Shown here: in pieces, positions 777 to 60,763 of the stretch
Layout of the letters: each line of letters begins with the position of its first letter
Position numbering within the stretch: position 1 is the first letter of the stretch
DNA from: Porphyra umbilicalis
Lineage: Eukaryota > Rhodophyta > Bangiophyceae > Bangiales > Bangiaceae
Length of the DNA: 64,000 bases
Direction: 5' to 3'
NCBI GenBank assembly: GCA_002049455.2
Contig: KV919038.1
Location: forward strand, 42,457-106,456
The notes under the pieces: model-generated
What the model was told of the DNA's origin: nothing
Database searches by the model: none
The model's input: the letters and a program-made list of their open reading frames with translations, nothing else
Made by a program: the position numbers and the translations under genes

Positions 777-1957
777 GGCGGCCCCGTGCGCGGCGCGGCC
801 GGCGGTGGCAGGCGGCCGGTGCGGACACAACCGCGTCGAGGCGTATGCAGAGGCCGCCCGCGAAAGGGGAAAGGGTAGAGGCGTGTGCCGACGCCGCGGG
901 TAGAAGGGGCAAGGGTTTCGCCAAGAGCGCGCAGGCGCGCACGGGGGCGGGGCGGTGTGGCGCGGTGGGGGGGGGTTCGGTGCCGCGTCACGACGGATGG
1001 GGCACGCACGTAGGCGGGGGGCGCAGCCGCGTGCGGCGTGGGGGCACCGACGACGCCGCACACGGTGCTCCCGCGGGCGTGCGGTCGACGCAACGGCCAC
1101 AGCGCCGGCTCGGCCCGCCGCGCCCCAATCACAATTGGCGACGGCGGATGCACGCCGTTTGGATTAGGGGCGGCAAGCGCCGCGCCAGACGGCGGATCGC
1201 TGCGGCTGGCGGGATCTCCTGCGCTTGGCGCCGCCACGCCCATCGATGGGCGGGGATGCATCCCCGCTCCCGCGTCTGCGCGTTGGCTGGCGCCGTCCTC
1301 CCGGCGGGCGCCGCTCGCCGTTGCCGCCACGCGCTTTTCCCGCCTGCCGTCACGCCCCCCACCCCCCCCGTCGCAGAGCCGCCGCCAAGCAAACCCCCGT
1401 GTCCTCTGCCGGCTGTCGATGCGCCGCCGACCGCCGTGCAGTGCGCCTGCCCTCGGTCGGCCGCCCGCCGGCCACGGGTGCCGCTGCGCCCGCCGTGCCC
1501 GTCACGGCGGGTCGGGGGGACACGGCTGAAAGAGCCGTCGCTCCGCCCCGTTTGCTCGGTTGTTGTCGCTGGACGGGCGGCGGTCCCGTCTGTCTCTGTC
1601 GCCGCTGCCGCAGCTGTGGCCGCTGCGCGATTCGCTCGCTGTGGTGGTCGCTTTGCTGGCCGGTATCGGTGTTACCGTGTCGTGGGCCTCTGTAGCACCT
1701 CGCCCAAACGGCCCTGTGCTGGAAAACGTCGCCCATACAACTGCACTGGCCTTTGATGCAGTGGCCTAGCGTCCACCCTGTCAACTGTACAAACCGCCCG
1801 CGATGCCTGCACAGCAGCTGCGGCACCCCCTCACCGCCCGCACGCTCCACCGCCAGCACCAACCTGGCGTGCGCGTTCCACGTACACCCCTCCCGCACGC
1901 GCGTTCTACGTACACCCCACCCACCCCACCCCCCCCCCCCCCCCCCTCGTCACGCCC
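777..1957. other. Intergenic region upstream of RecQ and downstream of the choice-of-anchor A gene
   Basis: About 1.2 kb with no recognisable protein on either strand; the open frames here are low-complexity shadows of GC-rich sequence. It should hold the RecQ promoter (right to left) and the 3' end of the choice-of-anchor A gene. An 18-base C-run lies at 1929-1946. No TATA-like element, RNA gene or mobile element was seen. Confidence 0.5.
1929..1946 (-). repeat. 18-base C/G homopolymer just past a stop codon
   Basis: Eighteen Cs on the + strand, so 18 Gs on the coding strand of the choice-of-anchor A gene, beginning 11 bases after its TGA. One of several G-runs placed at gene ends in this window. 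Confidence 0.95.
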
Positions 1958-3467
1958 TCAACACGCAAACGGCGCGTTGCGGAACTCGACGCCCGTATCG
2001 ACCGACGCCACGACGACACTCCCCCGCACGTTGCCCGCGGGCCCGTCCAACGCCACCCCCGGCGCGAGCACCGCCGCCGGCACGCCGACATTGTCGACCG
2101 TCAGCGCGGCCACGCCACAAAAGTTCAACACGGTCGTCGGGGGCACAAAGTTGAAAGACTCGCACCCCGCCAGCCGCACCCGCCCGCCGCCGTCGCCGCC
2201 GCCGGCGCCGCCGAGCACGTTGATGGCCACGACCGTCGACGCGTCCCGCCGGCCGGCCACCGTCACGCCCGTGGCGGCCGTCAACGCCGCGCCCGGCACG
2301 GTGCACAGGGCGAGGGCGCCCGCCGGCGCGGCCGACACGTCAAACGAAACGCCGCCGCCGTCGGTGAGAGACGTGACGCACCCGGCGGGCGCGGCACGAC
2401 CGCACAGCGCCGCCGACGCGGCGGTCGCCGACGCGGCGGCGGCAGCGAAATCAAAGGCGCCCGCCGGCACGGCGGCGGCGCACACCCGCCCGACCGAGTC
2501 GGGGAGGACCACGCCGGCGGGGAGGGACAGGCCGCCATTGGCCACCTGCCCAGACGACGCGTTGAGGGCGCCCCCGACGGCCAGTGCGACCGACGACGGG
2601 TCGCACGGCGACGACGGGTTGACGGAAAAGCCCGTCAGCGTCGCGTCGCCGCCGCACGCGAGGGGGCCGAGCACCTCGGACGCGACGAGCGTCGTGGCGC
2701 CAACCGTAAAGAGGTTAAAGGGGGGGAACCGTGGGCACCCGGGGGGGGGGACAAACGGTGCCCCGGCGTCGGCGGGTGCGACGGGGGCGGTCGCGGGCGC
2801 CACGAGGGGGGGTTGAGGGACCGCCGCCGGCGGGGGCGGTGCCGCGAGAGGCACGGGCGTCACCAACGGCGGTGGCGTGGCGGGCGCCGCGGGCGCCGCC
2901 ACGGGCGTCGGGGGGGCGTCGGCACCGCCGCCGCCGGGACGGGCGCCGACGGCGGCAAGCCACCGACGGGCGCCACCAGTGACGGGAGCAGCGGCGCCGC
3001 CGCGCCCGGTACGCCCGTCGACGGGTTGACGGCTCCGCCGACGACGCCGAACGTCAGCGGCGGGGGGGGGTCGGCACGGCCGCACCGGCAGTGGGGAACA
3101 GCGGTAGCTGCGGCGGCGGCGCCGCCAACGGCAGCGGCAGCGCCAGCGGCGGCGCCACCACAGGCAGTTGTTGCGGTGGCAGCGTCTCTTGCGGGGTGGT
3201 GACACCGACAAACGGCATGGCCCACCCACCCTCTCCGTCGGCGACCGCGCCCGCGGGCGGGGCGGGCACCGCGAGCAGCGGCGCGCATGGCGGCGGCGCG
3301 CCGCCAACGGCCGTGAGGAAGGGCTGCTGGCCGAAGGCCGCGGCGGCACCGGCGGTGCGCGGCAAGTAGGCGGCGGGCATGGCAGAGGTGGCAGAGGTAA
3401 CGGCGGCAACAGTCAGGGCGGTGACGGCCGCCGCCCAGGTGGGGGAGGTGCGTGTGACGCCCACCAT
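1958..3467 (-). CDS. Secreted choice-of-anchor A domain protein (copy 1)
   Basis: Probable secreted cell-surface protein. The ATG at 3467 (context GGCACCATGG) opens a clear signal peptide (MVGVTRTSPTWAAAVTALTV, Ala/Val-rich core, then cleavage near SAMPAAYLPR) and a Pro/Ala-rich linker. The C-terminal about 260 residues match the choice-of-anchor A adhesin domain: the opening strand pattern FNLFTVGATTLVASEVLGP, then ACGGDATLTGFSVN, a late VLNFCGVAALTVDNVGV, and the closing AAVLAPGVAL...GSVVVASVDTGVEF. The frame changes twice inside G-runs, at 3062-3070 and 2910-2916, so this is one gene only if those run lengths are wrong or the transcript slips. A paralogue lies at 60764-61727. The family is known mainly from bacterial surface proteins. 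The domain assignment is good; function (wall or adhesion) is inference. Confidence 0.72.
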
Positions 3468-4487: not shown

Positions 4488-5245
4488 ATGGCGCCCCCCC
4501 CCCCAACCCCTACACCGTCCTCGGCCTCGACTGGCGGGCGACGGCCGCCCTCCCCCCCCCGCCATTACCCGCGCCTACCGCAAAGCCGCCCTGCGCGTGC
4601 ACCCCGACAAGAACCCGACGGTCCCCCCCGCCGCCGCCGCCGCCGCCTTTGCCGCCGTCTTTGCCGCCTACGAGGCGCTCTCCGACGCGGACGGGCGGGC
4701 GGCGCTCGACGCGCGGCTGGCGGCGGGGGCGGCGGCGGCGACCGCCGCCGCCGCCCGCACCGCCGCCATGGACGGGGAGCGCCGCGCCGCGCGGTCGGCG
4801 TTGGAGCGGCGGGAGGCGGACGCGGCGGCGGCGGCCGCGGGCGTCGGCGGCGGCGCGACGGCGGGCGCGTCTGCTGCTGCCGCCGCCGCCGCCGCCGCCG
4901 CCGTCGGTCGGGAGGCGCGGATGCGCGCCGAGCTGGTGCGCCTCGGGCGGGAGGTGGCCGCCGAGGCGGCGGCCGCGCGGCGCGCGGCGCGCGCGCCCGA
5001 CGGCGGGCGGGGTGGCGCCGCGGCGCGGCGGCGGGGGGGGGGGCACGCCGAGCCGGACGAGGGGGGGGGGGGGGGGGCGCCGAGGGCGGGGGGGATGGGC
5101 CGCCCCGCTGATTGGGGGGGGGGACGCCGCCTGGGGGGGGGGGGGGTCCTGCCCCCCGTCGGCGCCTACGCGGGCCGCTATGGGGATTTTGGGGCGTACG
5201 AGGCGGCCACGCTCGCGCGGTGTCGGGGGGGGGGGGGGGGGGTGA
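4488..5245 (+). CDS. DnaJ-domain protein, DNAJC17/Cwf23-like, frame broken at C-runs
   Basis: J-domain co-chaperone that would stimulate an Hsp70; relatives of this type associate with the spliceosome. From ATG 4488 the J domain reads NPYTVLGLDWRATAAL, then AITRAYRKAALRVHPDKNP with the HPD signature, then FAAVFAAYEALSDADGRAAL. A charged helix follows (MDGERRAARSALERREAD), as in DNAJC17, then Ala/Gly-rich sequence and a closing FGAYEAATLAR that resembles the family C-terminus. Two C-runs break the frame: 4494-4504 (11 Cs, 12 needed) and 4552-4560 (9 Cs, 10 needed). Each is one base short, which restores one continuous J domain and argues for a run-length error. An 18-G run at 5225-5242 is followed directly by TGA. 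J domain certain; the DNAJC17 assignment rests on the post-J helix and is moderate. Confidence 0.82.
5225..5242 (+). repeat. 18-base G homopolymer abutting a stop codon
   Basis: Eighteen Gs on the coding strand end exactly at the TGA (5243-5245) of the DnaJ-domain gene. More G-runs lie on both sides (5029-5270). Confidence 0.95.
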
Positions 5246-5923
5246 CGCTGGGGGGGGGGGGGGGGGTGCCTGCGCAGAAGGCGGGCGGTCGCCCGTGCCC
5301 GCGCGCTTGGTTTCTCGCCCCGGGGGGGGCGCCCGTGCCGGCACGGGGTGTTGCTTGTACAGGGGTCTCGCGCCGACTCTGTCTCTTGTGTTGTTGCTTG
5401 TACAGGGGGCCCGCGCCGACCCGGTCTCTCGTTCCGTCGGTGAGCCGCTGCGCCGGCGCGCCGGCGGTCCCGCCCACTGCGCGACGGCGTCGCGCCGCCA
5501 CCGTGGCGGGCGGTCGACCCGGGGCGGCCGGGTCGCACAACCACCCGCACGGCAACGCAGGTGGGGCTGGGCGGCGCGCGCCCGCCGCCCAACCGTGACC
5601 GTACGGCGACGGCGCGCGGCCGCCGGTCGGTGCGCCGACCCCGCGCTGCCGAGCCCGCCCGCCCGCGGGCGCCGGCGGGCGGCGCCGCCGCCGCCACGCC
5701 CGTCGACCGCCGGGCAGCCACCCACACGGCGCACGCGCCGACGCGGGGGCGCCCGACGACGGGCGTCACGGCCGCCGCCCATCGGCGCGGGTGGGGTCCC
5801 CGCCGTCGCCCCCCACCCACGCCCCTCTTGCGGTGCGCTCCAGGCCGCCGCCGCGCGCGCGCCGCGCGCCCCTCCCCCCCCCCCGCCGGGCGTCGGCGGC
5901 GCCCCCCCCCCCCCACGGCGTGC
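5246..5923. other. Convergent 3' intergenic region
   Basis: Lies between the 3' ends of the DnaJ-domain gene and the DUF3593-DUF2499 gene. It holds more G-runs, the 43-base direct repeat at 5351-5436, and C-runs at 5875-5917. No gene recognised. Confidence 0.45.
5351..5436 (+). repeat. Tandem direct repeat, two 43-base units
   Basis: Two adjacent copies, 5351-5393 and 5394-5436, both opening TTGCTTGTACAGGGG and continuing with a CGCGCCGAC...GTCTC core; they differ at a few positions. Found just downstream of the DnaJ-domain gene. Role unknown. Confidence 0.8.
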
Positions 5924-7429
5924 CTACGCTTGCACAGAGTCGGACTCGGCGGCGGCGGCGGCGGCGGTCTCCCGCGCCCCCGCGCCGCCCACGACGCTGC
6001 ATTCACGGCCGTCGGCAAGACGACCGCCGCGACCGCCACGGGCAGCGTCGGGTGGAAGGCGCCGTCGAGCCACAGCTCCCCCCACTTGACGACCGCCGCG
6101 GCCGCCACCGAGCCGCCGACGACCTTGGCCCAAAACACCGCCGGCGGCTCCACCGCCGCCGCCGCCGCCGCCATGAGGGGCGGTCGCGGCGCCACCGCCG
6201 CGCCATCGTCGCCGCCCACGCCGCCCGCCGCCGCCGCCGCCAGCGCCTTGCCCCGCCGGTACACCCGCCACGCGGCGACGGCGCAGCAGGTGTTCCCGCC
6301 CACGGTCAGGGCGGCTTGCAGGGCGACGAGCCCCCCCACCGCCGGCGCGTTGTAGGCAGCGTGAAACACACACGCCGCCACCCCCGACGCGTGCAGCGGC
6401 ACCATCCCCCACACGAGCCCCTTCCACGCGTCATTCCCCGACGCGGCCGCGTAGCGCCACGCGAGGCCCATGGCGAGGAGCCACTCGGCGACGGACGAGA
6501 CGTGGATGGCCCACGTCGGCAGCGACAGCGCGTTGGCGGGTTCAACGTGCGCCGACGTGCCGCCGGCGGCGGCCAGCGCCGCCACGCCCGCCGCAATGAC
6601 CGCGGCGGCGAGGGCCTCGCCGGCCATCGCGCGGCCGGGGGGGGTGCCGACCCCGTTGCCGACCGCCGGGGGGGCGCCCGACAGTGCCGCCGCCACAGAG
6701 GTGGAGGACGCGGGGGGGGGGGAGGTGCCCCCGCCACCCCGTCGGTCGCGGCGGCGGTGGCGGCGGCGGCCCCGTCGGTGACGCGAGCCCCGCCCGGAAC
6801 CCCCCCACAATGAGCAAGTTGGTGACGGTCAGCAGCGACTCGGCCGACCCGTGGAGCCAATCGACGTTGGCGAGGATGTCGCCGACAACGACCTTGGCGT
6901 AGATGCCCGCGGGGATGGTCGCAAACACAAAGACGAGGAGGAAGGCAAAGCCGCGGTAGGCCCCCTTGGGGCACCCCGTTTCGGGGCGGGAGAGGAAGTA
7001 GAGGAAGGCGAGGTACGGGAAGAGGGAGGCTGCAAACAGCTGCGCGGCGAGCGCGTCGGCGGCCGCCGCCGAGATGGACCACGGGTCGGTAAAGGCGAGG
7101 GCGAGGGGGGCGGCGACAGCCGCAGCGGCGGCCGCCACCGCGTCGCCGGCGGCGGTGACGGCGGTGGTGGCGGCAGGCGGGAGGTGCGCCGCGAGCGCGG
7201 CGGGCGCGGCTGCCAACGCTGGCGCGGCGGCGGGCAGCAGCGGCGCCAGCGTGGCCACGGGTGGGGAGGCGCCGACGGCCGGCCGGCGGCGGTGGGGCGC
7301 CCGAGCGGCGGGCACCGGATGCGGGGCGCCGCGGTGTGGCAGCCCCGTCGACGGGCGCGCCGCCCAGCGCCCCGCCGCGGAAAAGGCGGCGGGGGCGGGG
7401 GCGAGGAAGGCGCCGACCGGGGACGGCAT
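5924..7429 (-). CDS. Plastid membrane protein with fused DUF3593 and DUF2499 (Ycf49-like) domains
   Basis: The two domains are known together in plastid-targeted proteins of plants and algae; DUF2499 corresponds to cyanobacterial/plastid Ycf49. ATG at 7429 (CACCATGC) begins a transit-like leader (MPSPVGAFLAPAPAAFSAAG, about 100 residues, Ala/Pro/Arg-rich). DUF3593 follows with LFAASLFPYLAFLYFLSRPE, FLLVFVFATIPAGIYAKVV and NVDWLHGSAESLLTVTNLLI. After an 11-base G-run at 6712-6722, where the frame shifts, DUF2499 begins: LSLPTWAIHVSSVAEWLLAM, WKGLVWGMVPLHASGVAACV, LVALQAALTVGGNTCCAVAA. About six hydrophobic helices are visible. A second hydrophobic part ends near VNAASWAARG. The stop used here (5924) follows a helix-like tail in another frame and is uncertain. 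Biochemical role is unknown in the family. Confidence 0.86.
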
Positions 7430-8202
7430 GGTGCACGCGCGGCGGCACGCGTCGGTGCCCACTGCGACAAAGCAGACGGACAAGGGCGCGGGAAGAGGTC
7501 GACGCAAAGACCGACAAAAAAAAAAACCACCAAAGAGGGGCGCGACGTCAAGCAAGCACAGGCGCCCACGATGGACGGCACGGCGGTGGGGTGGCGCGGG
7601 GGGGGGTGACCGACGGCCGCGCCGGGTGGCGGGTGGAGTCTCGACGGGGGTGGCGCGCCCGCGCGGCGCGATCAGATCCGCGGGCCCCCGAGATTGAGCG
7701 CTGCCACACCCGCCCGTGAGCCCAGGGGCGCCACTTGCGCGGCCCACTTTGCATGTCCGACGTGCGCTTCGCCAGCGTCTGATACTGCTGTACCGCCGAC
7801 GCCACCCCGCGCCGGTGCATCCGTGGCGGGGGGGCGCTCGCTGTCCCCGACCCGACGGTACGGGCGCGGCGTGCCGTGTCCGTTGGCGGCACGGCATGGG
7901 CGCTTCGGCTCGCTAGGCGGGTGCAACGTCGAGGCCTCTGGCGGGCGTCTTGTCGGCTGCGGCGGGCGGCTTTGCACCGCTCTTGTTCTCCTCGCCTACG
8001 GTCGTGCGCTCGTGCCGCCGCCGGCTGCACCAGTGCCGCCTCCTGCCGCCCCTGTGCATCCGCGACGCGCGCCGCCCGGCGGGCGCTGCGTGAGCCACCC
8101 GTCGGCCGCACCACAGCGAGCGTCGTCCCCCGCTCGCCGGGTGGCGCGGCGGCAGCGCCCACCCCCCCCCCCTCCCCCCCCCCCCCCCCCGGAGCGGCCA
8201 CC
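7430..8202. other. Divergent intergenic region, DUF3593-DUF2499 gene and sulfotransferase
   Basis: Shared upstream region of two genes that point away from each other. It has an A-run at 7517-7525 close to the minus-strand start and two C-runs (8162-8172 and 8174-8190) just before the sulfotransferase ATG. No further gene seen. Confidence 0.45.
8162..8190 (+). repeat. C-runs of 11 and 17 bases in a 5' leader
   Basis: Two C-runs separated by one T, ending 12 bases before the sulfotransferase ATG at 8203; another 11-C run lies inside codons 3-6. Coding-strand C-runs at gene starts recur in this window. Confidence 0.93.
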
Positions 8203-9471
8203 ATGCCCGCCCCCCCCCCCTCCCGCGCCCGCGGGCGGCGGCTCGCCCCCCTCGTCGCCGCCGCCGTTGGCGGCGGCACCGCCCTCCTCGCCGTCTCCCT
8301 GTGGTGGCGGGGCGGCGGTGGGGTGCGCGCCCCCACCTCCCGCCTCGCCCCCGTCGGCTGCGACGCGCGCCTCGGCTACTGCGGCGCGACGGTGCGGGAG
8401 TGCCGGGACGCGCCCGCGGCGGTGGCGCCCGACCCCGCCGCGCGCAACGGGCGGCCGCTGCTGGTGGTGGCGGCCGGCGGCAGCCGCTCCGCCTCCACGT
8501 GGGTGTACAACGTCGCGCGCATCCTGCTGCGGGTGCGGGACCCCAACACCGTCGCCGGGTGGTATGAGGACCTGGCGGGCTTGACGGGCGCCTACGCGCA
8601 GCTGGAGGCAGGCAATGGCACGTACCCGCATGTGGAGGTGGCAAGCCGCCTCGACGCGCTCCGCTCCCTCGACACGTCGGTGTTGCTCAAAATCCACCTC
8701 GTGCAAGAGTGGGCGACGCTCCTCGGGGGGGCCGACGCGGCCACCACAACGGCCACGGGCGGCGCGTCCGACGCGGACCTGGTGCCCCTCACCGAGTTGT
8801 CGGCCGCCGCGGACGTGGTGCTCACCTCCCACCGGGATGTGCGGGAGGTCGTCCGCTCCCTCCGCCACATGGGGTGGGGGTCCCGCGTCAACCCGGCGGC
8901 GTTTGACCACCCCGACTTTTGCCGTCGCCCGTACGACGCGCGGTGGGGGCCGGCGCCGCTCGGCGCCGACGGCTACCGCGACGCGGACGCGTGGGTCAAC
9001 ATGGCCCGCGCGCACATCCTGTGTCGGGAGCGCCTGCTCGCGTCGGCGGGGGATAAGCTGGCACTCGACGTGGCCGCGGAGGAGCTCCACGGCGCGTCTG
9101 CGGCGGTGGCGCTGCGCCACATCCGCACCGTGGCGGCGGCGCTCGAGTGGCCCTACACGGAGGCGGAGCTGGAGGGCGTCGCCACGGAAGTGGCGCGCCT
9201 CCGCGTGCCCCCGTGCCACAGCGGGTATGGGGTGCAGCTGGTGCTCAACCCGACGTCACACATGCACCGGGGGCACGTGCGGCTGGCGGCGGAGAATGTG
9301 GAGGCGGTGGATGCAGCGGGGGTCGCTGCGATCGAGGCCGACCCGTTTTGCCGCCGGTGGCTGGTCGCCCACGGGTACATGGAGGCTGCTGGGGGGGAGG
9401 GTGCGGGGGGGGCGGGCGCACCGGCACGGAAGCGGCTACGTAGCCCTTGCGCGGCAACTGCGAATCGATAG
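8203..9471 (+). CDS. Type II membrane sulfotransferase-like protein
   Basis: Probable Golgi-lumen sulfotransferase, transferring sulfate from PAPS to a carbohydrate or other acceptor. The ATG at 8203 has an excellent context (GCCACCATGC). A short basic N-terminus (SRARGRRLAP) precedes one membrane anchor (LVAAAVGGGTALLAVSLWW, about residues 15-33), the type II layout of Golgi enzymes. The 5'-phosphosulfate loop is GGSRSASTWVYNVARILL (near residue 90) and the 3'-phosphate region is VVLTSHRDVREVVRSLRHM (near residue 208). Later helices (ELHGASAAVALRHIRTVAAAL) fit the family fold. The protein is 422 residues, a normal length, in one unbroken frame. A Gly-rich tail with G-runs (9396-9414) precedes the stop. 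Acceptor specificity cannot be told. In an alga, sulfated wall galactans would be a natural substrate, but that is only inference. Confidence 0.8.
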   Translation: MPAPPPSRARGRRLAPLVAAAVGGGTALLAVSLWWRGGGGVRAPTSRLAPVGCDARLGYCGATVRECRDAPAAVAPDPAARNGRPLLVVAAGGSRSASTWVYNVARILLRVRDPNTVAGWYEDLAGLTGAYAQLEAGNGTYPHVEVASRLDALRSLDTSVLLKIHLVQEWATLLGGADAATTTATGGASDADLVPLTELSAAADVVLTSHRDVREVVRSLRHMGWGSRVNPAAFDHPDFCRRPYDARWGPAPLGADGYRDADAWVNMARAHILCRERLLASAGDKLALDVAAEELHGASAAVALRHIRTVAAALEWPYTEAELEGVATEVARLRVPPCHSGYGVQLVLNPTSHMHRGHVRLAAENVEAVDAAGVAAIEADPFCRRWLVAHGYMEAAGGEGAGGAGAPARKRLRSPCAATANR

Positions 9472-24551: not shown

Positions 24552-24577
24552 CAGAGGTGGCAGGTGATTCTTATTTG

Positions 24578-42245: not shown

Positions 42246-42299
<54 letters not shown>

Positions 42300-42328
42300 G
42301 CCGGCGGTCGAGGCGCCCCCCCCCCCGT

Positions 42329-42369
<41 letters not shown>

Positions 42370-46752: not shown

Positions 46753-49134
46753 TACTGGGGCGTACTGCGGCCTAGAATTTGTACCCAGAAAGTGAAATCA
46801 ATGCTGGGGTGGCGCGGGCTCCACTGGCCTCTCACCAGCCCGTGGAAACGCAGGCTACAAGTGGCGCCCTCAGTCCTGGTGTTGTCCCCGCCGACGGCGG
46901 TGGGATTCGGCGGGATTCCTCATCATGTAGCCTCGCCGGATCGCTAATGTAGCCTCACCGGGTCGAGAGGGAATTCTCGTGCGTGAGACGATTCAATGCC
47001 TCGATGCAAGGCCTGGACGAGACTGGTCACGGATCAACTCCGGCGGTTCATCGCTGGATTTCTGGAACGCTGCGCTGCGCTCTACGTGGCCCTCACTGAA
47101 CCCCCTGTGATACCCCAGGTCAGATCTCATCGTAACGACTGCATCTGCTTTCAAGGCTACGGCCACGCCAACGCCTCCGCTTCGTCGATGCCAACGTCGA
47201 CGGTCTCTCCATCGACGCCTGATACGCACCCCCCCCCACACCCGCCGCAGTTGCTCACGGGCGCCGATGCCCCCACTCCGTCAATGCCCTACACACACCC
47301 ACCGCCAGCAATCATTCGGCCGGTCACATCTCGTAGTACCTGACGTCACCGGCTTGCAGACTGCGCCCACGGCCACCCATTCAACTAGTTGACAGTAAAA
47401 TAACCCTCTCAAGAACGCCCCTAAATCGGGTGTAGAAGTTACTGGTCAGCCGAGGTGTCATACTTCACTGTGCTGTTCTGTCAACCATCCGCCATATGGA
47501 GAGCTGCAAGCCTCGTGTGTGGACCCAGCACGCCTCACCATCAGTTGCGTGGAGGGCGGCACGCCTTTTGCGGGGATCTCGACCCTCATTTATTGACACT
47601 GTGAGCCTTACTGGGCGGTCAATCGTCATTTGTTCTCACAGGCATAGGCTGGGATCGGATCCTCAGTGGCCGCGTTTTGACTACCCGTTGCTTCGGGCGA
47701 TCATCGATTGGTGCAGCGTATGTCGCTCTTAGGAGGGTCAGCCGACGTGGAAACTCCCCGGGGAACGGCGTCCAGTGGGCCGTTGGCCCTCAATGGTACC
47801 ACCTGGCCGTGCCCCCCACTCCGGCAGCCCTCGCGAACCCCCGCCCCTCCGCACCCCCTGCGCCTTAAAGGCGTTCGGCCGCGGTACAGCTACCGCTGAA
47901 GGCTACCGCCGTCGTCGCGCATGAAGGAGGGGCCGGGAGTCACGCCGGCGTCAAGGCTTCCTCTACCGCGTACGGATCCCGTCACGCTCGAGCTGCGCGT
48001 CGTTGACAGCCCCCTCGCCCGTCTTGTATTTTTAGTTTTCAAGTACGTTACGTGTCGTGAGGACTAGTAGGACAAGGAGAGTGGTATGATGTGTGCACTG
48101 CGTATCGTTTGGTCCGCCGTTCTCCCTCCGTAAATCTGCACCCGTCCAGTGATGTGCTTCTTCTCTCTCTGCCCATGTGGCCTTTGCCGCCACCTTTTCG
48201 CCTACTGCCGCTGTTCTCCTACTGCCTGTTTCCTGCCCACTGCTCTTTTCCCTCCGCTGCCTCCTTTCCCAATACTTCCCCTTTTAGCCCTACTGCCCAT
48301 TGTTCTTCTACTGCACCATGTATTTCTACAGTCTCATTTGCTCCTACGGCCCCTGCTACCCCTACAGTCGTCGCGGACGGCGCGGATGCGGACGGCGAGG
48401 GGGTGGGGCGCTGCATGTGCTGATTTTCCTGTCCTTGCTTCGTTCTGGCTTTTTGGGTGCGGTTCGGGTCCGGTGGCGAGGGGCGGGGGAAGAGCGCGAG
48501 GAGGTAGGAAGAGGGTGTACTACCCCCAGGCAGAGGGCGCTACAGAACCATAAAAGACGCTTCTGTTTTCTGCAACGTATTCAGCTGGTGCGGCCCTGTA
48601 CGACAGCTCTCCTGCTGGCATCACGTATCAGACCGCTGATTGAATACGAATCCAGCCCAGGCACGCTCGCAATCGTGGCACCAAGGGGGGCCACGTGACT
48701 TGTCTCAGCAGGTGCGGTGATGCCCCCAATTGGAGCTGTGACGGGGGGGGGGGCGGCTCCCGGACATGTCGTTGAACAGTGTCAGAACCGTGCTGGCCGC
48801 GTACTGTTGCTCTAAAATGCAAATATGCCATCTATACTGATAGTGTAGACACTGAGGAAAAGCGGGGTCGAATATGGCCCAGTACAGCCATTTCAGACGT
48901 ACTGGCACCAATCTGAAAACCGCCGGGGTAAGTCCCCAAGTAGCGTGGTACGGAATCGCGACGATCTTCCTTGTCCGAGGGCGCACGAGAATGCAGCATT
49001 CGACTGTTTGCAGACAATCGAGTCGCCAAAGTGCATCTTGGTTAGGTCCTGGTCAGATCCTGCTGAAGGGGTGCAGAAGCCCGCATCCTTGACAGTTGAA
49101 CACGTGCGCAAGGGTGTCAAAAAACCGGGTACAG

Positions 49135-49270
49135 TACAGCCGTTCTCGCAAAAACCTCGCACGCCAACTGTCGCACCACTCTTAACAATCGGCCTTCACG
49201 GGGTCGCAGAGGCCGATTTGTGAGAGTGGTGCAACAGTCGGCGTGCGAGGTTTTTCAGAGAACGGCTGTA
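49135..49270. mobile_element. Hairpin MITE nested in the transposon's left terminal repeat
   Basis: Arms 49135-49195 and 49210-49270 are 61 bases each and reverse complements at nearly all positions, with a 14-base loop. The element proper runs CAGCCGTTCTC...GAACGGCTG between TA dinucleotides at 49135-49136 and 49269-49270. It therefore used TA target sites, but its ends differ from the host transposon's, so it belongs to another TA-specific family. Confidence 0.9.
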
Positions 49271-49765
49271 TCCGTCTGGCACCAGTTTTTCACAACTGCC
49301 TCAGAACATGGGATTTTCTGTTCGTTCTTCGAACGAAAAAAATATGGACGGACTCCTGAGAACCTCACGAGGAAGCACGTCGTTTCCGTTTCCAACGAAG
49401 TGCTCCCGTTCGTTGTCTAGAAAATGCACCTAAAATAGGGCCTGTACCAGTTCTTCACACAATCAATCTCGAGTGTGCACGGCCACAGATCGGGCTGAAA
49501 AACTTACATCAAACATGTATTTGATTTATTTCGTCTGTTGGACGCGGATCTGGAATCCGACTCGTCGAGCGTTGTCAAGCGGTTCAGACACGACATGAAC
49601 ATGCAGACAAACGCCCCGCATCCCTCGCCGTCTGCCCTGTGGTCACAAAGCAGTGCCCCTGACCGTTTACGATGCCCCCTTCCCATCCCCATCAAGACGA
49701 AACGAATGACGTACGCCGCCACTCCACATGCGCCCTACACACTATGGCACGCGCCAATCACAAAA

Positions 49766-51571
49766 CTAAATGTGCAGGCGACTCCTCACCCCAGCAGCTT
49801 CACCCGCAAGCACTCGCCAGAGAATGCGGGGATGCACACGCGGCACGCGCACTCTGGCGGCTGCCAGCCGCCGCCGCGACTTTGCAGTGGATGGCAGAAC
49901 CATGCCCAAGTCACGCAATCGGCACCCAGCCTCGTGTGCTGCATCCGATGCAATCTCCGCCCACACGATGCGACGGTTGGAGGCCTCCCGCTCCACAACG
50001 CGCGCGTGCCTGGCACGTGCCACGGCTGCTCCCTTCCGCTTCTTGTCCTCGGCAGTCAGCTCTCGAGCCTGCTTCTTTGCCGCCTTGGCCTCCTTCACCG
50101 CCTCTTTTCCCGCGGCAGCGTCTGCCATCGCTGCCAGAATCTCGGGTGCGGTCAAAACCGTACCCCTCCCGGCCGTCGACAGTGTGCCGTTGACGAGGAT
50201 GGGTTGCGACATATCCTTGCGGACAGTAGGGATCAACCGAGATGTCAACCTCTCGAGGTCAACGTCCGGAAGGACAGTGTCAGCGCCCTTGCACAGCTCG
50301 GAGTTCTTGATGACCGAGGGGTCGAGGGGCCACATCCCCACTTGGCGAAAGGCCGACACTAACGCGTCCGTCGTGAGGGACTCGGAGGCGGCACGGCCAA
50401 TACAGGACATCAAGTCCGCCGTATTGAATGGCCGGCCAGCATCCCGACACCCCATAGCAATCTCGCGGACGCGGCGCCGCACTTTTGGTTGATATCGCCC
50501 GAACGCGCTTGGATTGTCGAGCGCCCGGAGGATGTGGGACATCTTTGACGGTTCTGCCACGACGTGCACGTTGGCCTTCAGGAGGGTGAGAAGGCCGGCC
50601 GGCGAAAGGTGTACCTTGGCACCGTCGAGGGAGAGGAGCTTTGCCTCATCTTTGAAGTAGGACTGTGCAAACTTGGCGAACATGGTGGCCCAGACATCAA
50701 ACACGCTTTTGTCAAAACCTGGTGGGGACCGCCGCCACACAACCGCCCCGTCATTAAGGAGGGAGGAAAGCGCCGTGACGGTCTTGGTGCCGTCCTGCTT
50801 CGTCTCGGTCAGGTCGGCGTGTCCTGGTACCTGGCCCTCCACCACGATGAAGTGGGGCGCCATAACGCCAGCCGCCGACACACAAAACGCCGCGGTACAC
50901 GCGCCCGCACCGGATGCAAACGGCGGCAAGATTACCTCCGGCTTGAGCATCCCGACCTCCCCGAGAATCCCTTGACGACCCGACATGGCCGACATCCGGG
51001 CGTGGACGTGTGTCTCGTCCATATTCCAAACCTGCCGAGGGGAATTAATCCGCAGGTCCCGGTACAGGAGCGTCAAGAGGGCAAACCAGTTGGCGACGAC
51101 GTCGGGTCTCGCGTTTCGAGCACGGCCCTCCTCTAACGTGCCGACCCGGTACCGCCGCAGCTCGGGGTGTCGCGAGAGGAAGCCCCTAACCCAGCTACGG
51201 CCCGGCACTAGCGTGCCACCAAACCGCTCACGGGCAGCCGCCTGCCTCTCCACAGAGAGCTCGCCCAGGTACGAGGCACACACGCGACACAGATCTTCCT
51301 GGGACAAGCCCCGCCCAATCGTCGCGTTGGTGATCAAATATCTGGCCAACAAGGCCTCCTCCTCAGCCGTAAAAAAAGGACTAGGCCCACGCCGCCTCGT
51401 CGTCCCGCCCGTGAGGACGTAGTACCTTGCACGGTTGTACGACAGGTTGAGACGGGTGGCAAAGTCTTTGACCGTCAGACCGCCGGACCGAACGACGGCT
51501 AGAGCTGCCTGCTTCCTCTCGTGGTCGTCATCAGGACAGGCCTGCGGCCCAGGGCGTGCTCCACCCGGCAT
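49766..51571 (-). CDS. Pogo/Tigger-like DDE transposase, intact
   Basis: Catalyses cut-and-paste transposition of the enclosing element. ATG 51571 starts an unbroken 601-residue protein. Order of domains: psq-type helix-turn-helix (ERKQAALAVVRSGGLTVKDF, RLNLSYNRARYYVL, residues about 17-52); CENP-B/Tc5-like second DNA-binding domain (FTAEEEALLARYLI, GRSWVRGFLSRHPELRRYRV, about 65-150); DDE_1 catalytic core with NMDETHVHARM (first Asp), LLSLDGAKVHLSPAGL (second Asp) and MSHILRALDNPSAFGRYQP (third Asp), so the DDD triad is present. A Lys/Arg/Ala-rich helix (KEAVKEAKAAKKQARELTAE) and basic tail follow. No stops or long homopolymers interrupt it, in contrast to host genes, and composition is closer to balance. 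Intact frame and matching terminal repeats suggest recent activity. Confidence 0.93.
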   Translation of the reverse strand: MPGGARPGPQACPDDDHERKQAALAVVRSGGLTVKDFATRLNLSYNRARYYVLTGGTTRRRGPSPFFTAEEEALLARYLITNATIGRGLSQEDLCRVCASYLGELSVERQAAARERFGGTLVPGRSWVRGFLSRHPELRRYRVGTLEEGRARNARPDVVANWFALLTLLYRDLRINSPRQVWNMDETHVHARMSAMSGRQGILGEVGMLKPEVILPPFASGAGACTAAFCVSAAGVMAPHFIVVEGQVPGHADLTETKQDGTKTVTALSSLLNDGAVVWRRSPPGFDKSVFDVWATMFAKFAQSYFKDEAKLLSLDGAKVHLSPAGLLTLLKANVHVVAEPSKMSHILRALDNPSAFGRYQPKVRRRVREIAMGCRDAGRPFNTADLMSCIGRAASESLTTDALVSAFRQVGMWPLDPSVIKNSELCKGADTVLPDVDLERLTSRLIPTVRKDMSQPILVNGTLSTAGRGTVLTAPEILAAMADAAAGKEAVKEAKAAKKQARELTAEDKKRKGAAVARARHARVVEREASNRRIVWAEIASDAAHEAGCRLRDLGMVLPSTAKSRRRLAAARVRVPRVHPRILWRVLAGEAAGVRSRLHI

Positions 51572-52227
51572 TGTCGGACGGCGCAGAGGGGGGCAGGGGG
51601 AGGAGGGGGCGCCAGGATGGATGTGGCGGGACAGAAGGAAATAGTGTTGAGTGCGGGGGGCGTGGGGACCTGCTTGAGCCTTGGCTCAAGCGGAAATCGG
51701 CCGCAGAGCAAGGTGCCACGGCGGGGAAGGAGGCATGGGGGACCTTTGGTGGGACGAAGAGGGTGGCGGATCGCCTTTGTCGTGCTGAATGGGGCGTCCA
51801 GGCGATGTATTTAGGACTAAGTTTGCCTTCAGAAGCGCGCGCTTTTCTCGCCTCGGACGGCGCCGAGAACCCCATTGGGCTTCTTTTGGCGCGCTCGTTG
51901 CACCACTGGAGAGCTCTTGAGTTGGCGCGTGCAACGGTGCGCCCCACTGTACGCGTTCATTTTTCTATCTTTTTACAAAATCTCGCAAAGAAAGAGCGAG
52001 CGTGCTTTTGGGTGCTATCGAACTCGATTTTCGGCGTCCACACTGTGAATTTCCCACACAAGCCGCGATTGTGAAAAACTGGTACAGTTGTGAAAAACTG
52101 GTGCCAGACGGATATTGACTGTAGACAGCTCCTGCCAGGCCTCTGCGCTGGCCGGCCAGCGCATCGAGGGCCGGCCCTCGATGCCGTCGAGTGGCGCGCC
52201 GGTCGGCCATCCGTGCGGGTACATGCT

Positions 52228-52250
52228 AAAACCAGTTCCTGTTCGAGTCT
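52228..52250 (+). repeat. Dispersed repeat AAAACCAGTTC..GTTCGAGTCT, copy 1
   Basis: Matched in reverse complement at 56505-56527 at 21 of 23 positions. GTTCGAGTCT recurs at about 52270 and 52330. The motif resembles a pol III B box, but no tRNA or A box could be found. Confidence 0.6.
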
Positions 52251-54357
52251 GTTTCTGCCAATGAATCGCCGTTCGAGTCTCCGCTCCGGGCGAGGCCTGC
52301 GTCCCCAAAATCGGCGTTTCCTGTGTCTGGGGGCACATCCGTTCGAGTCTGTTTCAAGCATATGGGGAGGGGTGTCAGCGCACGAGCGTGCTGGGGGTCG
52401 TTTTCGATACGTAGCCGCGTCCTGTTGGAGTAATTGACTGCATCTCAATACTCCAGCTCTAACACTCAACTGCTTGCTTGTAAGGTCAAGAAAGTCGCAT
52501 CGCTATAGGTAAACCTGTCGAAGCCGATACCGGCTGTGACGGCCCTGGGCTGCTCGTGGGCGGCGACGACCGGGTCGCCGTCCGCTTTGGTGCCCGCTAG
52601 CGGACCAAGCAGAACGAAGGGGAAAGTGCTGGTATATAAACAAGGACGGGTGAGCAACCAGAACATGTAACATCGGCCAAGCGGTGGTGCGGTGAGGGTT
52701 GAAGTGCGGGGACACATCAACTGTGCGGTGGTCAGGTCTGCGCTGGAGCCATCGGATGCATACATCAACAGAAACAAAGGAAAAGAACAGCTGAACATGA
52801 CCGGGGGGGGGGAGGGGTGGGGGAGGACGGGGACAGACATCAGAGGAGAAGGGAAGGTGCGGCTCGTCAAAGAATGGAGAGGGGGGCGTCGAGGAAAACA
52901 CAACGAAGCAGAGGGCAGTGTTACACAAAGGTAGGAGAGGGGGGGGGGGGGGCTGGCAGTCCGGGGGGTGGCGGCAGAGGCAGGGGAAAGGGCCATGGTG
53001 GCGCCTGAGAGACACTGGCGGCCCATGTTTCATGCACGTAGCGTTATTCAGCATTTGAATTCGACCGAGAGAGAAGGATGGGGGCCACTTCACTATCCGG
53101 CGAATTATTTCACAATTCGAAATAGGGGCTCTGGGCACCTCACTGGAGCCTGCAAATGGAAAAAATCTTTAGCACACTTGCACAGGAGCTCTCTGCCAGT
53201 GAGTGGGCTCGCAACTTTTCCGCTCATGCTCTTCCTACCGGCCGATCACGTTCCAATTTTTGGCGACTGGTACTAAGCTGGGTTGTGGAGAACATGGATC
53301 AGTAGCGCTCTTATTTGTGAGCCTCTCTTATGGAGTTGGTCACTGTTGTCTTCTTTTTTTTTCATACCGTCTTTCATCGGCTGATGCGTTAGGAGTTTAG
53401 TTAGAAACGTCTGTCTTTCTTAGATGAGGATGCGGGGGTTACATTCCTAATGTCGCAAAGGTATAATACTTCATTTGCCGAAGTCGTTGCAAATTACGCG
53501 GAATAGAATGCACAGTATCAGGCTGGATGAGGTGGGTGAAAGTTCACATGACAGTATGACGTCAGACCTGGCGTGTTGCCAATGGCATCTCGCGGACGTT
53601 CTCATCTCAGACGCGCGATGCGTAGCTGTCCCGTCGCTCTGTGTTTCTGGACCGTCAGGGCGTGGCCACTAAGGTTGGCATTTACCGAACATTGCGATGA
53701 ATGCTCTTTCCCAACCGGAATACTCAATTATCGATTTTGTACCGATATCTCGGTAGTCTCACGTTTCATAAAATTTCCAATTTTGTGGCATATGTGGTTA
53801 GAGCCCCACTCGCGTCCGCACCCTCATCCACACAGTGCAACGACCACCGCATGACCCCGACCATACCAACCTCCCGCCTCTGCACTCCACCCAAGTAGCA
53901 CCACGGCCTCGACTGTGTCTGACCTGGGCAAGCTCGGATCCATCCCTTCGCCTCCCCACCAATAACACTCCTGCGTACCACAGCGCGCCATACATTCCCC
54001 ACACATCAAGGCACATACATCGACAACATACCGCTCGCCCACTCTGCTACCAACATTATGACGCAAAGGAAACTTGGAGGCGCGGAAGTTCCGCAGCCGC
54101 AACACTACCTCTTGGGGATACCCAGGCATCTTTTGAAAGGGCAGAGGACACGCTTGCTTGGGCAGAGGAGGCGAGCTGGACTGAAGCAGGATGGCCTGCA
54201 TACTAGACGCGGGTGTCTTGTGCGATCAATATTGCATCGTGGCTGTTTTGCTGGTCTATCTGGTCGGCGACTAATGGGACCGGTGAGTGCCTCGCCCGGT
54301 ATGTGGCGTCGGTCGAGCTCTCCCAGGATTAAATACGAATATTATTACATTACAGAC

Positions 54358-54441
54358 CTGTACCGACCATTGAGAAAATGGACGATACCGACTATTGATC
54401 GGGGTACCGAGATCCTTACCGACCAAATTTACCGATATACC
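54358..54441 (+). repeat. Cluster of TACCGA motifs
   Basis: TACCGA or TACCAAC-like hexamers occur about six times in 85 bases, for example TACCGACC, TACCGACT, TACCGAGA, TACCGACC and TACCGATA. A further TACCGATATCTCGGTA occurs near 53740. Irregular spacing; role unknown. Confidence 0.6.
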
Positions 54442-55332
54442 AACAATATGGCCACACGGCCCGACATGCGAGACGTTTCACCCACCCTGACAGCGGCGAT
54501 GACAGCATCGCCAAAGAACCAAGAAAGTATTAGAATTACGTATTTGTCATGCGCCCTCTGGACCACGAATAAACTATTGTTCAGTCACCCTAAATGCTAC
54601 GGATTGTCTTAACTATGACTGTTCCGAACACGGCGGCCTCGCAGACAAGCGTGGACTGGGGGCATGATGAAGCGCGGAATGGCGGCACGGCGCGATTTCT
54701 GCGTTGGTACCTGTTGATCGTACACCACAGAATGTTCACTTTTCTCGTGGTGGGGTGGTGCAAACTGGATACACGAACGTGCGCGCAGCATACAGAAAAG
54801 AGATGCACAGTGTCAAAACATTCGATGCAAGGTAGCGTGCGCAACGCCGGGGTTTAATCGCGGCGTTTTCAACAAGCACAGACACATCACGAGCGTCCTT
54901 GGAATTGCGCCGTCGGTGGGAAAGGGATGTGGGTGAGCATAGAAATGGGACGAGGCCGGAAGAAGTGTTTTATTGACGAGGCTGTTCGGCCGCACACCGC
55001 TGGGGGGGGCACCCTGAGGGCGCGATGCTCTGGGGCCTGAATCGCCAGAGAGTATTAGTTCCTTAGAACTCATCTGGGGTTCGTACTGATGCCTTTAGGT
55101 ACCAAGGGCGGAAGTCATAAAATCCCATATGAAAATCTCGCAGATAATCAAGGACATGCGCTACACATGCACTGAAGAGGGGTTGAAATCGGAGCCAGCT
55201 TTGGAATGGCTTAAATATTTCAATGTGTGATGGGACGCGGATAACTGTGTGGATCAGAGTGAATGCACGTGGAGCACGCATATCCAATCGTTACAAGCAT
55301 GGCTGAGAGCCGTCCTGAGGAAGCCGTGGTAG

Positions 55333-55366
55333 CCAGTCGTTACAATTTTCGAGTTGTAACGACTGG
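55333..55366. repeat. Perfect 13-base inverted repeat with 8-base loop
   Basis: CCAGTCGTTACAA, loop TTTTCGAG, then TTGTAACGACTGG. Could be a MITE remnant or a protein-binding palindrome; no gene nearby. Confidence 0.93.
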
Positions 55367-56504
55367 ACAGGAATTCGTCTCAGTATCCGATTATCCTACG
55401 TGCATGGTGCGTGGGCCACACTGGCGAATGCAGCGGACGTCCTCACAACGGCAGGACGAGGGCGCCACGGCGTGCCGTTAGGACCAGCTCAGAGCCCCTG
55501 CTTGGGCCTTCCTCAGGGTTTGAAGCAGTTTGGGCGGGCATCTCAAGCGAACCAACGTCTGCTCAATCCGAGCTGTGATTGGCTTAAACGCTTGATCTGT
55601 CTCTTTGTACGATGATCCAGGACATGATTGGCCAACAATCTGCGATGATGATTGACCCGAAGGGCGCCACTTCGACTTCGAGCGCACAAAATGTTGTCAA
55701 ACGATCGGCTTCGAAGCCGCCTGCGGCTTTCTGCGTGGCACTGGCCGCGTCAGTGACCTATCCCCTCCCCGACTTTGACCCTCGCCTACCGCCGTCATCC
55801 CCTCCTTCCTTTGCATGCTATATCCTCGAGCGCCCCGCTGTTCCCCCCCCCCGAGCCGCTGTCCGACCCCGCCGTCTTCGTCTTGCTTCATTCTGCCCGA
55901 GCACCGCCGTTCTGGTCGTCGAGCTACTGCACCTTTCCCCCGTCCTCTCCCCCCCCCCCCTCTTCATTACCCCCCCTCCCCCTTCCTTCCTCGCCCCCTC
56001 ATGCCCCCCCCTTCATTGCTTTTGCTCACTGTTTCTCTTGTGCTCCACTCAGATGGCCAGGGGAGCCAACAACGAGCAGTCACCCCGCGGCTCCCGCCTG
56101 TCGCAGCCGGCCCCCGCGGCACCCGCCGCCGTCACCCTTATCGCTGTTGGGGCTCTTTACCAATTCACATGCCTTTTCAGATACGTGCTGCGCCCTCTTC
56201 TAGTGCTATCGCCCGCTAGCCGGGTACCAGCGTGGGGGGCGGACGACAGCCGCCTCCTGGCCCGACGGCTGTCATTGCCACCGAGTCATCTGGACTGGCT
56301 ACCTATGAGTATGGGTAGTCATCTAAAGGAAGAAATTGATAGTATAGCACAAACTCCCTCCAGACTGCGCCAGTACATTACGTGCTCCCGAACCGTGGCT
56401 GCAGGGTGTTTTCCAGTGCCTGACAAGTGACATAGACTCGAACACTTCGCGGTCTGGAGGCTGGAAACCGTGGTTGGAGAATCGTCGAGTGCGGGGTCTG
56501 TGAG

Positions 56505-58495: not shown

Positions 58496-59766
58496 ATGGG
58501 GCCCCCCGCCATCTACCGGCGCCGGCGGCGCCTCGGGTGGCTGCCGCTGGCGCTCCTCGCCGCGGCAGCGGCGGCGGCGGCGTCAGCGTCGGCCACCCCC
58601 CCCCCGGTGCCCCCCCGCGCTGCTTCAACGGCGTCTGCCGGGGCACCGCGTCGATGGCGCACCCCCGCGAGGACCCCTACTCGGCCGCCCCCGCCGATGT
58701 CGTCGACGTGCCGCTCCACCTGACGTGGCCGCGGTCGCGACGCGGCTCGACACCTCGCCCCGTCCCGCTGATCATCTTGCTCACCGGCGCCCTCGTGCGC
58801 CCCGTCGACTACACGCTTCTGCGCACCGCCCTCGGGCGGGAGGCGGTGGTGGCCGCCCCCGAGTACGCGGCGCGCAACTTTACGCCGCCCGCGCAAGCGC
58901 CGCCCGGTGCTGGGGGGAGCCTCTTTGACATCTTCCTCGAGCAGGTGGCCTCCAAGGGCGGCCGCCGTGGCTGCCCGCGCCTCGGCTCCCTGCCGTCGGC
59001 GCGGCTCGTGCAGAGTGTGTTGGAGCACCTTGCCGACGCCGCCGCGGCCGGCGGGAATGACGCGTCGGCCGCCGCTGCCGCCGTCGCCGACGCGTCCCGG
59101 ACGGTGCTGTATGGCCACTCGGCGGGCGCCCTGTCGGCCCTGATGCTCGCGACGGGCGGCTGTGCGGCGCCGGGCCTGCCGCCCTTTGTCGCCCGCGTCG
59201 TGTGCGAGGGTGCCTCCGCGCCCCCGCCGGGCCTCCGTGGCGTTGCATGGTACGGGGGCGGCGCTCCGCCGGGCCCGCCCGTCACCCTCCCCCCCGGCGT
59301 GTGGGGCCTCGGCCTCGACGGGGACACGCCCGGCTCGGTGACGTTGCTGGCGGCGGTGACGGCCGCCGTCGGGCCGCCCCCAAACGGCACGGCCGTCGTC
59401 CTCACCGCCGGCATGGTGCGCGCGGGCCACTTTGGCGTCTCTGACTTTGTGCCGGGCGCCACGGCGCCATCGGGCGCCACGCCGTGCACGACGGACAACC
59501 CCGGCGACGGCAACTTTACAACGACCGCCGCGGCGGCAGAGACGACGGCGCGGCGGGTGGCGTGGGCGACGCGCGCCGCGCTCGCCGCGTACGTGCCGCC
59601 ACCCGCGGGGGCGGTCGGCCACACGGCGGTGGCGACGGAGCGCCGGCGGCGGCGGGGGTGCGCCTACCTGACCGCCATTGTCAGCGGCCGGGCGCCGGGC
59701 TTTGAGCGCGTCACCGTGCAGGGGGGGGGGGGGGAGGGGGGGTGCCCGGGCGTGCGGAAGGGGTGA
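58496..59766 (+). CDS. Secreted alpha/beta hydrolase, chlorophyllase/dienelactone hydrolase-like
   Basis: Serine hydrolase of the alpha/beta fold, probably acting outside the cell or in the secretory pathway. ATG 58496 starts a signal peptide (MGPPAIYRRRRRLGWLPLAL then an Ala-rich core to SASAT). A 10-base C-run at 58596-58605 shifts the frame; from RCFNGVCRGTASMAHPREDP onward it is unbroken. First strand and oxyanion region: RPVPLIILLTGALVRPVDYT, then VVAAPEYAARNF. Nucleophile elbow TVLYGHSAGALSALMLATGG (GHSAG; catalytic Ser near residue 203). Likely acid in GLGLDGDTPGS and His in GMVRAGHFGVSDF, so the triad can be filled. Several Cys (CFNGVC, GGCAAPG, VVCEGAS, PCTTDN) fit a secreted protein with disulfides. 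Length about 423 residues. G-runs at 59721-59742 precede the stop. Substrate unknown; chlorophyllase activity not implied. Confidence 0.75.
59721..59742 (+). repeat. G-runs of 14 and 7 bases before the hydrolase stop
   Basis: 59721-59734 and 59736-59742 on the coding strand, with a further 15-G run at 59812-59826 past the stop. Fits the G-run-at-stop pattern. Confidence 0.93.
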
Positions 59767-60763
59767 GTGGTCGCGGGTGCGCCGGGTTGATGCTGGTGTG
59801 AAAAGGTGTTCGGGGGGGGGGGGGGGAGTTAGGTGGGGGGTAGCCGACATGGCGAGGCGCGGCGCTTGCGCGCGGGTGGCGCGGTGTGCGGGGGCCCACC
59901 GGGGTTTACACTGCTTGCAGACGATGCTTTGATCGGCCGACACGTGCAGTGCAAAGTCCCGCTCAGTGGAGTGTCAGTGTCGCGCCCGCGTGGCGGCCGG
60001 GCATCGCCGACACTGTCCGATGCGGATGGCCTGCGGCAACCAGCCGAGCCCCCCGCAGGCCCTCCTCAAACGCTTTGGCGCAACGGTATGGGCCTCCCCC
60101 GCCCTCGTGACCACGGTGACGGCCGCGGCCGCGGCCGCCGGGACGGCCGCTGACGACGCGCCGGCGGTCGCGGCAGCCGCACGCTCCCGCCGCAGCGACA
60201 ACCGTGACGGCCCGCCCCGCAGCAGGCCCGCTCGCCTGGGCGCGGCGGCGCGCAGCAATGGCGACTGACACCGGGCGGGGGGCGCGTCGCGCCCGCCAGG
60301 CAGCGGCCGGCGGCGCTGCCGCTGGGCCGGTGAGGCGGCGCACGCGCACGTGCCGACCCTGGCGGGGGGGATACCGTCCACGCTGAGGGGGCGGACGCTG
60401 CTGCGGTTGGCCGCGGCCGTCGGCGTAGTGGTGGTGGTCGCGGCGCTCACCGCGCACCGGGGGGGAGGGGGATGGACCGCCGCCACGACGGGGAGTGGTC
60501 GCCGCCATGCACGTGCACCTTTGGTCACCTCAAGGAAAAAGAAGCTACTCCGGCCGGCCCGCCGTCAAACCTCGGTGCCGGTCGGCCCTGACGGGAAAGA
60601 CCCCCCGACTAGACCCCGGTGGGAAGGAACGTGCTGCTGGTCACTTTAGTGTTAGGCCGTCATTGTCCCCCCCGCCCGCAACGCAGCGTCCCTGCGCCCC
60701 CACCGATACGGCTCACCCTCCCTCCCCGCCAGCAGCTAGTAGTCTCTCCGCTCACTGGCGCCC
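59767..60763. other. Convergent intergenic region with doubtful small frames
   Basis: About 1 kb. One plus-strand stretch, 60342-60465, reads AHVPTLAGGIPSTLRGRTLL then RLAAAVGVVVVVAALTAHR, which looks like a C-terminal membrane anchor, but no credible upstream part could be joined to it. Another, near 60020-60268, reads CGNQPSPPQALLKRFGATVW and continues Ala-rich. Neither is strong enough for a gene call; a small tail-anchored protein with introns is possible. Confidence 0.35.

Follow-up and report, generated by a model that had tools for sequence, protein, structure and literature searches.

On the coding strand of genes in a 64-kb stretch of contig KV919038.1 (the window, by which the whole stretch analysed is meant), homopolymer runs of C gather towards the 5' ends and runs of G towards the 3' ends, and the same polarity recurs at other loci of the 83.8-Mb, 665-contig assembly to which all genome-wide counts in this study refer. 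This polarity is a gradient which is strongest at gene ends and has exceptions, and the asymmetry extends beyond the runs themselves, as a gradient is also present at fourfold sites when the runs are masked. The runs are far more numerous than local composition would lead one to expect, both inside the window and outside it. The genome is probably that of a plastid-bearing alga, judging from ten matches to the light-harvesting domain PF00504 (best E value 3.0e-37) and from its possession of nicastrin and of introns.

Polarity of runs along coding blocks

A run is taken as at least eight identical bases unless another length is stated. Coding blocks were called with a codon-use model trained on the same data, in the scoring of which CCC and GGG were set to zero so that the runs could not decide the outcome, and codon use and Pfam are the basis of the gene models. 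With codon-model segments scoring below 20 and merged blocks scoring below 35 excluded beforehand, 36 merged blocks were used, 15 in the window and 21 in 20 random loci of 10 kb, all from the largest contigs; a doubtful block at 32964-33815 (+), on the strand opposite to the PPR gene, was retained among them. A third set of loci, on contig C1, was chosen solely for containing a 20-base run; of its 17 blocks five were excluded (one overlapping, with a score of 79, and four with scores of 16 to 23) and two were merged, so that 11 were used and the total came to 47.

Pfam supports genes for nicastrin, a phytase-like/choice-of-anchor I protein, a metallophosphatase, two ice-binding-like proteins, DnaJ, DUF3593/DUF2499, a PPR protein and a DEAD helicase in the window, and for serine acetyltransferase, EMC4, glutathione peroxidase, DUF1365, an ankyrin protein, an RNase and a transposase in the random loci. 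The Pfam scan returned no match for the open reading frames (ORFs) which the original prediction, made from the sequence of the window, had named sulfotransferase, hydrolase and bZIP, nor for many of the random-locus blocks scanned, and a synaptobrevin-like ORF scored under its family cut-off.

Along the 36 blocks of the window and the random loci, the C:G counts of runs on the coding strand pass from 17:13 in the 500 bases upstream through 23:12, 11:11, 9:13, 4:28 and 3:29 in the successive fifths of the block, read 5' to 3', to 6:17 in the 500 bases downstream. Counted block by block, 11 of the 15 window blocks conform, two run against the rule and two are without runs (sign test P = 0.022), and among the 21 random-locus blocks ten conform, one opposes, three tie and seven are without runs (P = 0.012). 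The contig C1 set gave nine conforming and two opposing blocks out of 11 (P = 0.065), and the 32 blocks outside the window, taken together, comprise 19 that conform, three that oppose, three ties and seven without runs (P = 0.0009). When random intervals of equal length were substituted for the 36 blocks, none of 2000 trials attained the observed net count, and two attained the proportion of conforming runs that the blocks show.

When the runs are tallied by 100-base bin for the full set of 47 blocks, the G:C counts of the 3' zone are 17:0 and 17:3 before the block end and 20:1 in the first 100 bases beyond it, while the 5' zone is less pure, with C:G counts of 15:7 upstream followed by 11:4 and 9:1 inside the block. 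The density of runs likewise peaks at block ends, reaching 5.24 per kb just upstream and 4.77 per kb just downstream compared with 0.5 to 2.7 per kb in flanking bins farther out; a frame break at a run may terminate a block and thereby inflate this peak, but the polarity could not be produced in that manner.

Read on the + strand, the rule places C to the left and G to the right of every gene and is thus equal to its own reverse complement, which means that a wrong strand call neither creates nor destroys the pattern. For the same reason, agreement between the two strands, offered by the original prediction as added support, adds nothing, and we rejected it as independent evidence on logical grounds. 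The direction of transcription is visible only in other signs, namely a surplus of G-runs on the coding strand (123 G-runs and 73 C-runs in and around the 36 blocks) and an excess of T above A in the 100 bases at both block ends.

Excess of runs over chance

In the window 69 C-runs and 65 G-runs were counted, compared with three A-runs and six T-runs, and the longest homopolymers extend to 36 bases. Ten dinucleotide shuffles inside 500-base pieces, with the counts averaged, served as the control: 134 C- or G-runs were observed in the window where the shuffles gave 28.4, and at lengths of at least 10 and at least 15 bases the corresponding figures were 81 versus 5.9 and 26 versus 0.1. The 20 random loci behaved alike (154 versus 41.8, 81 versus 7.6 and 27 versus 0.0 at the same three thresholds), although the density of runs is higher in the window (134 in 64 kb) than in the random loci (154 in 200 kb). 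Neighbouring runs tend to share their base, as do 83 of 91 pairs that lie 0-50 bases apart, 64 of 66 at 50-100 and 72 of 85 at 100-200, and the runs cluster as strand-coherent patches of about 200 bases; pairs of mixed base are too few at short range for the order of successive runs to be judged, and the run lengths in the assembly are unreliable.

Starts and stops

The word ACCATGGC, which is the start context of the choice-of-anchor I gene, was employed as a start-like anchor (4659 occurrences genome-wide), and CGGTACCA, the same word read backwards, as its control (2612 occurrences). A C10 ending at most 31 bases upstream of ACCATGGC was found 133 times and a G10 24 times, whereas the same patterns read backwards gave 11 and 18. 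Inspection by eye of the 100 C10 matches listed indicated that some 15 repeat an earlier context and that three sites are double-counted, so that perhaps about four fifths of the 133 are independent, a redundancy which leaves the gap to G10 intact. At about 300-330 bases from ACCATGGC the counts were 36 for C10 and 57 for G10 (11 and 7 backwards), the latter being swollen by repeats in that 18 of the 32 matches shown with their sequence derive, by eye, from one or two dispersed repeats. Downstream of ACCATGGC on the forward strand, 42 C10 and 21 G10 were counted (16 and 8 in the read-backwards controls), figures of the same direction but weaker, which include a dispersed repeat beginning with ACCATGGC; the reverse-strand counts downstream (237 and 26) were set aside as one run is counted several times.

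Dispersed repeats are found around ACCATGGC genome-wide: one starts with ACCATGGCATCGTTTGCAC ahead of a C-run, one ends with CAGCAGCACCATGGC behind a C-run, and in another GGCCGGATGCGC stands behind a G-run about 300 bases upstream of ACCATGGC.

A stop codon could be placed in 11 genes, seven in the window and four outside, a set which excludes the DnaJ, nicastrin, PPR, bZIP-like and DUF2499 genes as their stops are unclear. Between -200 and +150 bases of these stops, a coding-strand G-run is present in seven of the 11 and a C-run in none, four having neither. A stop-anchored search pattern, consisting of a row of G/C-ending codons, the stop and a run, was tried and rejected because the wrong codon phase (NSN) outscored the right one in local data, and no anchor comparable in quality to ACCATGGC emerged for stops.

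Both features which the original prediction had described, the polarity by strand and the crowding of runs near the ends of genes, are real in the window and are repeated elsewhere, as evidenced by the block counts, the random loci and the 133:24 ratio of C10 to G10 ahead of ACCATGGC.

Underlying skew and its interpretation

With runs of at least five bases masked, the 36 blocks still show a rise in GC skew: it is -0.074 over the 100 bases ahead of the block, -0.015 in its first fifth, +0.078 in its last fifth and +0.127 over the 100 bases that follow it. When only the 21 random-locus blocks are considered, the 5' signal is weak (-0.026 upstream, +0.011 in the first fifth) and the 3' signal is similar to that of the full set (+0.125). 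At fourfold sites, again with runs masked, the five fifths read -0.131, -0.102, -0.041, -0.086 and +0.046 from 5' to 3'. The AT skew of the 36 blocks is negative in all five fifths (-0.033 to -0.111) and is negative at fourfold sites too.

On balance, it appears probable that the runs are the slippage-lengthened extreme of a transcription-linked gradient of GC skew along transcription units. On the coding strand C predominates near the start and G near the stop and, in a very GC-rich genome, short tracts of C and G would follow this local bias; replication slippage would then lengthen them where constraint is low, in leaders, 3' flanks, behind signal peptides, in protein tails and probably in introns. 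Transcription-linked mutation or repair would in this manner give rise to the skew, and slippage to the length of the runs. The excess over shuffled sequence grows with run length (134 versus 28.4 at eight bases or more, but 26 versus 0.1 at 15 or more), as slippage would give, which supports that part of the account, while the gradient is supported by fungi in which the same two-ended skew, at fourfold sites and in the flanks, is described in the available part of PMC3315797. The eighth power of the masked base ratio correctly predicted, in four of four zones, which way the runs are polarised. By eye, the runs lie in sequence of low constraint, that is in leaders, in 3' flanks and after a signal-peptide-like N-terminus (choice-of-anchor I gene and hydrolase-like ORF), as well as in the linker before the conserved domain and in the C-terminal tail of serine acetyltransferase, and probably also in introns (glutathione peroxidase).

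Several observations weigh against this account. The gradient at fourfold sites is not smooth, as the fourth fifth breaks the monotonic rise, and in three of the four zones the runs are more polarised than eighth-power amplification would make them: a predicted G:C of 0.69 stands against 2:17 seen at 0-200 bases of the 5' end, 4.33 against 22:1 at -200-0 of the 3' end, and 7.70 against 14:0 in the first 100 bases downstream. The remaining zone departs in the other direction and is less polarised than predicted (0.31 against 5:9).

This surplus in three zones lends some weight to the idea that the runs are selected transcription signals, with G-runs at the 3' end favouring quadruplexes or R-loops where the polymerase pauses and terminates, and with G-runs purged from leaders, where RNA quadruplexes would hinder scanning ribosomes, so that C-runs are left. 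The G-runs indeed reach their greatest density in the 100 bases that follow block ends (20 G, 1 C) and immediately before them (17:3, 17:0), and fewer G10 than C10 stand ahead of ACCATGGC (24 versus 133). Against this, the asymmetry is also found at fourfold sites with the runs masked, four of the 11 placed stops are without any run between -200 and +150, and the PPR gene has G-runs throughout its body, and we therefore consider such signals unlikely, if still worth entertaining. A similarly low probability is given to the notion that the homopolymers act as working marks of gene boundaries, whereby oriented poly(dC) would open promoters and poly(dG) would stop the polymerase at 3' ends, the tracts being selected beyond the skew. 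As a selected function would require just such a surplus of polarity as three zones show, a functional reading is kept as a minority candidate; if it were true, the limits of genes would be written as homopolymer tracts.

Poly(dA:dT) excludes nucleosomes in yeast and, by analogy, poly(dG:dC) tracts might do so here, their polarity marking the two sides of nucleosome-free gene ends. A mark of open-chromatin flanks would be free of orientation, as is the rule (G and then C across any intergenic stretch), and the runs are most frequent at the two ends of the blocks; many runs, however, lie well within genes, and this explanation appears improbable. Still less credence is given to splice signals, according to which C-runs would be polypyrimidine tracts before exons and G-runs enhancers behind them, so that exons rather than genes would be bordered. 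The glutathione peroxidase gene appears, by eye, to contain an intron in which a G-run is followed by a C-run directly ahead of the 3' splice site, but several of the patterned genes, among them those for the choice-of-anchor I protein and serine acetyltransferase, consist of one long ORF, and runs occur beyond placed stop codons. Sequencing or assembly artefacts in the runs or their lengths, to which the breaking of frames at runs in conserved domains (DnaJ by eye, and an ice-binding-like domain) might point, are the least probable explanation of all, as an artefact could not know where genes start and stop and the polarity recurs on other contigs; the lengths of the runs may be wrong, their presence hardly.

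The runs are expected to be prone to slippage and hence measurable, and mutation scored by strand and by position in the gene could directly test transcription as the source of the bias. The polarity could also be of practical use in locating where genes end in GC-rich algal genomes, and it serves as a warning that errors of run length can break reading frames in them.

Comparison with described systems

The original prediction knew of no described system of this kind, a statement which does not stand with regard to the underlying skew. According to the available part of PMC3315797, the coding strand in almost all unicellular fungi is C-biased at the 5' ends of genes, G-biased at the 3' ends and intermediate inside, the skew being present at fourfold sites and into the flanks, correlating weakly with expression and being described as an average over many genes, with the choice between a mutational and an adaptive cause left undecided. 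The C-biased 5' end, the G-biased 3' end reaching into the flank and the fourfold gradient are all found here, and a polarity known from fungal averages can be read in single genes of this alga-like genome. In the fungi A is almost always above T, however, whereas T is above A on the coding strand here, and the fungal pattern belongs to unicellular fungal taxa whereas the present genome is probably algal and carries homopolymers of up to 36 bases (comparison with the same part of PMC3315797); as AT sign and taxon were tested and both differ, the pattern is not filed as a member of the fungal one in spite of working alike.

In plants and some fungi, C exceeds G around transcription starts (PMC555766), which resembles the coding-strand excess of C at gene starts observed here, although the available part of that description concerns starts only and is without homopolymer runs. 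Human poly-G and poly-C tracts are enriched near gene starts and ends with a strand skew at the boundaries, but as described in the available part of PMC7181645 they extend to ten bases and are weakly asymmetric, whereas those found here are longer and strongly polarised. Mammalian genes have a G-biased coding strand at their starts, the opposite of the situation here (PMC3315797, available part).

The literature searches aimed at this homopolymer pattern found no report from an alga. Human genes possess an R-loop-linked GC skew at both ends, with a G-rich coding strand at the 3' end and also just downstream of the start. The G-rich 3' ends are shared, but the sequence downstream of starts is C-rich here: the two 100-base bins that follow the 5' end within the block have C:G counts of 11:4 and 9:1, the reverse of a G-skewed coding strand. 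What is new is the homopolymer form, the strength of the pattern and the organism, the skew beneath it being already described for unicellular fungi.

Runs at individual genes of the window

At the left end of the window, C18 on the + strand (1929-1946) corresponds to a coding-strand G18 of an ice-binding-like gene (-; pAdhesive_15), 11 bases past its TGA (1958-1960). The DnaJ gene (+), with its ATG at 4488, carries C11 (4494-4504) and C9 inside the coding part at its start (4494-4560) and seven G-runs of 8 to 18 bases in its 3' part (5033-5329). The DnaJ J-domain reads, by eye, in different frames around the runs at 4494-4560, and in an ice-binding-like gene on the - strand the pAdhesive_15 match stops at profile position 86 and resumes at 96 in another frame beside the eight-base run 61322-61329; such frame changes at runs in conserved domains may reflect errors of run length in the assembly or real frame breaks. 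Because reading frames break at runs, exact run length was dropped as a feature.

Coding-strand G11 and G13 (5874-5914, -) lie downstream of the DUF3593/DUF2499 block at 5983-7489, in which the two domains follow one another on the - strand in different frames, perhaps as one gene that is frame-broken or contains an intron. Around the ATG (8203) of the ORF named sulfotransferase (+) stand C11 (8162-8172), C17 (8174-8190) and C11 (8210-8220), and G8 (9405-9412) lies 67 to 60 bases ahead of where its stop codon ends (9471). The phytase-like/choice-of-anchor I gene (-), with its ATG at 16813, has a coding-strand C13 (16677-16689) behind a signal-peptide-like N-terminus and a G10 (13681-13690) 34 bases past its stop. 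In nicastrin (-), coding-strand C11, C19 and C16 occupy the 5' end of the ORF (22251-22396; on the + strand, G19 at 22334-22352 and G16 at 22381-22396), and G22 and G12 the 3' end of the block (19130-19199; C22 at 19130-19151 on the + strand).

The end of the ORF named bZIP (+) bears G11, G18 and G11 (28381-28432). In the PPR gene region (29125-33717, -), the coding-strand runs are mostly of C in the 5' stretch (about 32908-33717) and mostly of G through the body down to about 29125, with frames differing between blocks. A coding-strand G8 (37846-37853, -) follows the stop of the synaptobrevin-like ORF at a distance of 35 bases. In the ORF named hydrolase (+), C10 (58596-58605) stands behind a signal-peptide-like start (ATG at 58496), and the stop (59764-59766) is preceded by G14 (59721-59734) and followed by G15 (59812-59826). 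Runs quoted by the original prediction were found in place where they were checked, namely C18 of the ice-binding-like gene, C11 at 4494-4504, the three C-runs of the sulfotransferase ORF, C22, G19 and G16 of nicastrin as read on the + strand, and G14 and G15 of the hydrolase ORF.

The same account had termed the runs punctuation, and although the concentration at gene ends bears this out, the strictness which the word implies does not survive, as the pattern is a gradient and has counter-examples. The metallophosphatase gene (35945-37249, +) is without runs in or near it, the block at 41600-43691 (+) has C36, C24 and further C-runs inside it and towards its 3' end and a G25 in its first fifth, and the block at 60809-61662 also scores against the rule.

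Neighbouring features

Two islands of lower GC content (about 55-62%) are poor in runs, that at 46001-56000 holding seven of the window's 134 runs in its 10 kb and that at 24001-26000 none in 2 kb; the larger contains, by eye, a transposase-like ORF (50252-51376, -). ARAGORN reported a tRNA-Gln (TTG) at 28128-28210 (-), inside the ORF named bZIP on the opposite strand, which may be a false call. At 43573-43875, within a very GC-rich stretch, a 150-base unit is present twice in tandem with 98% identity.

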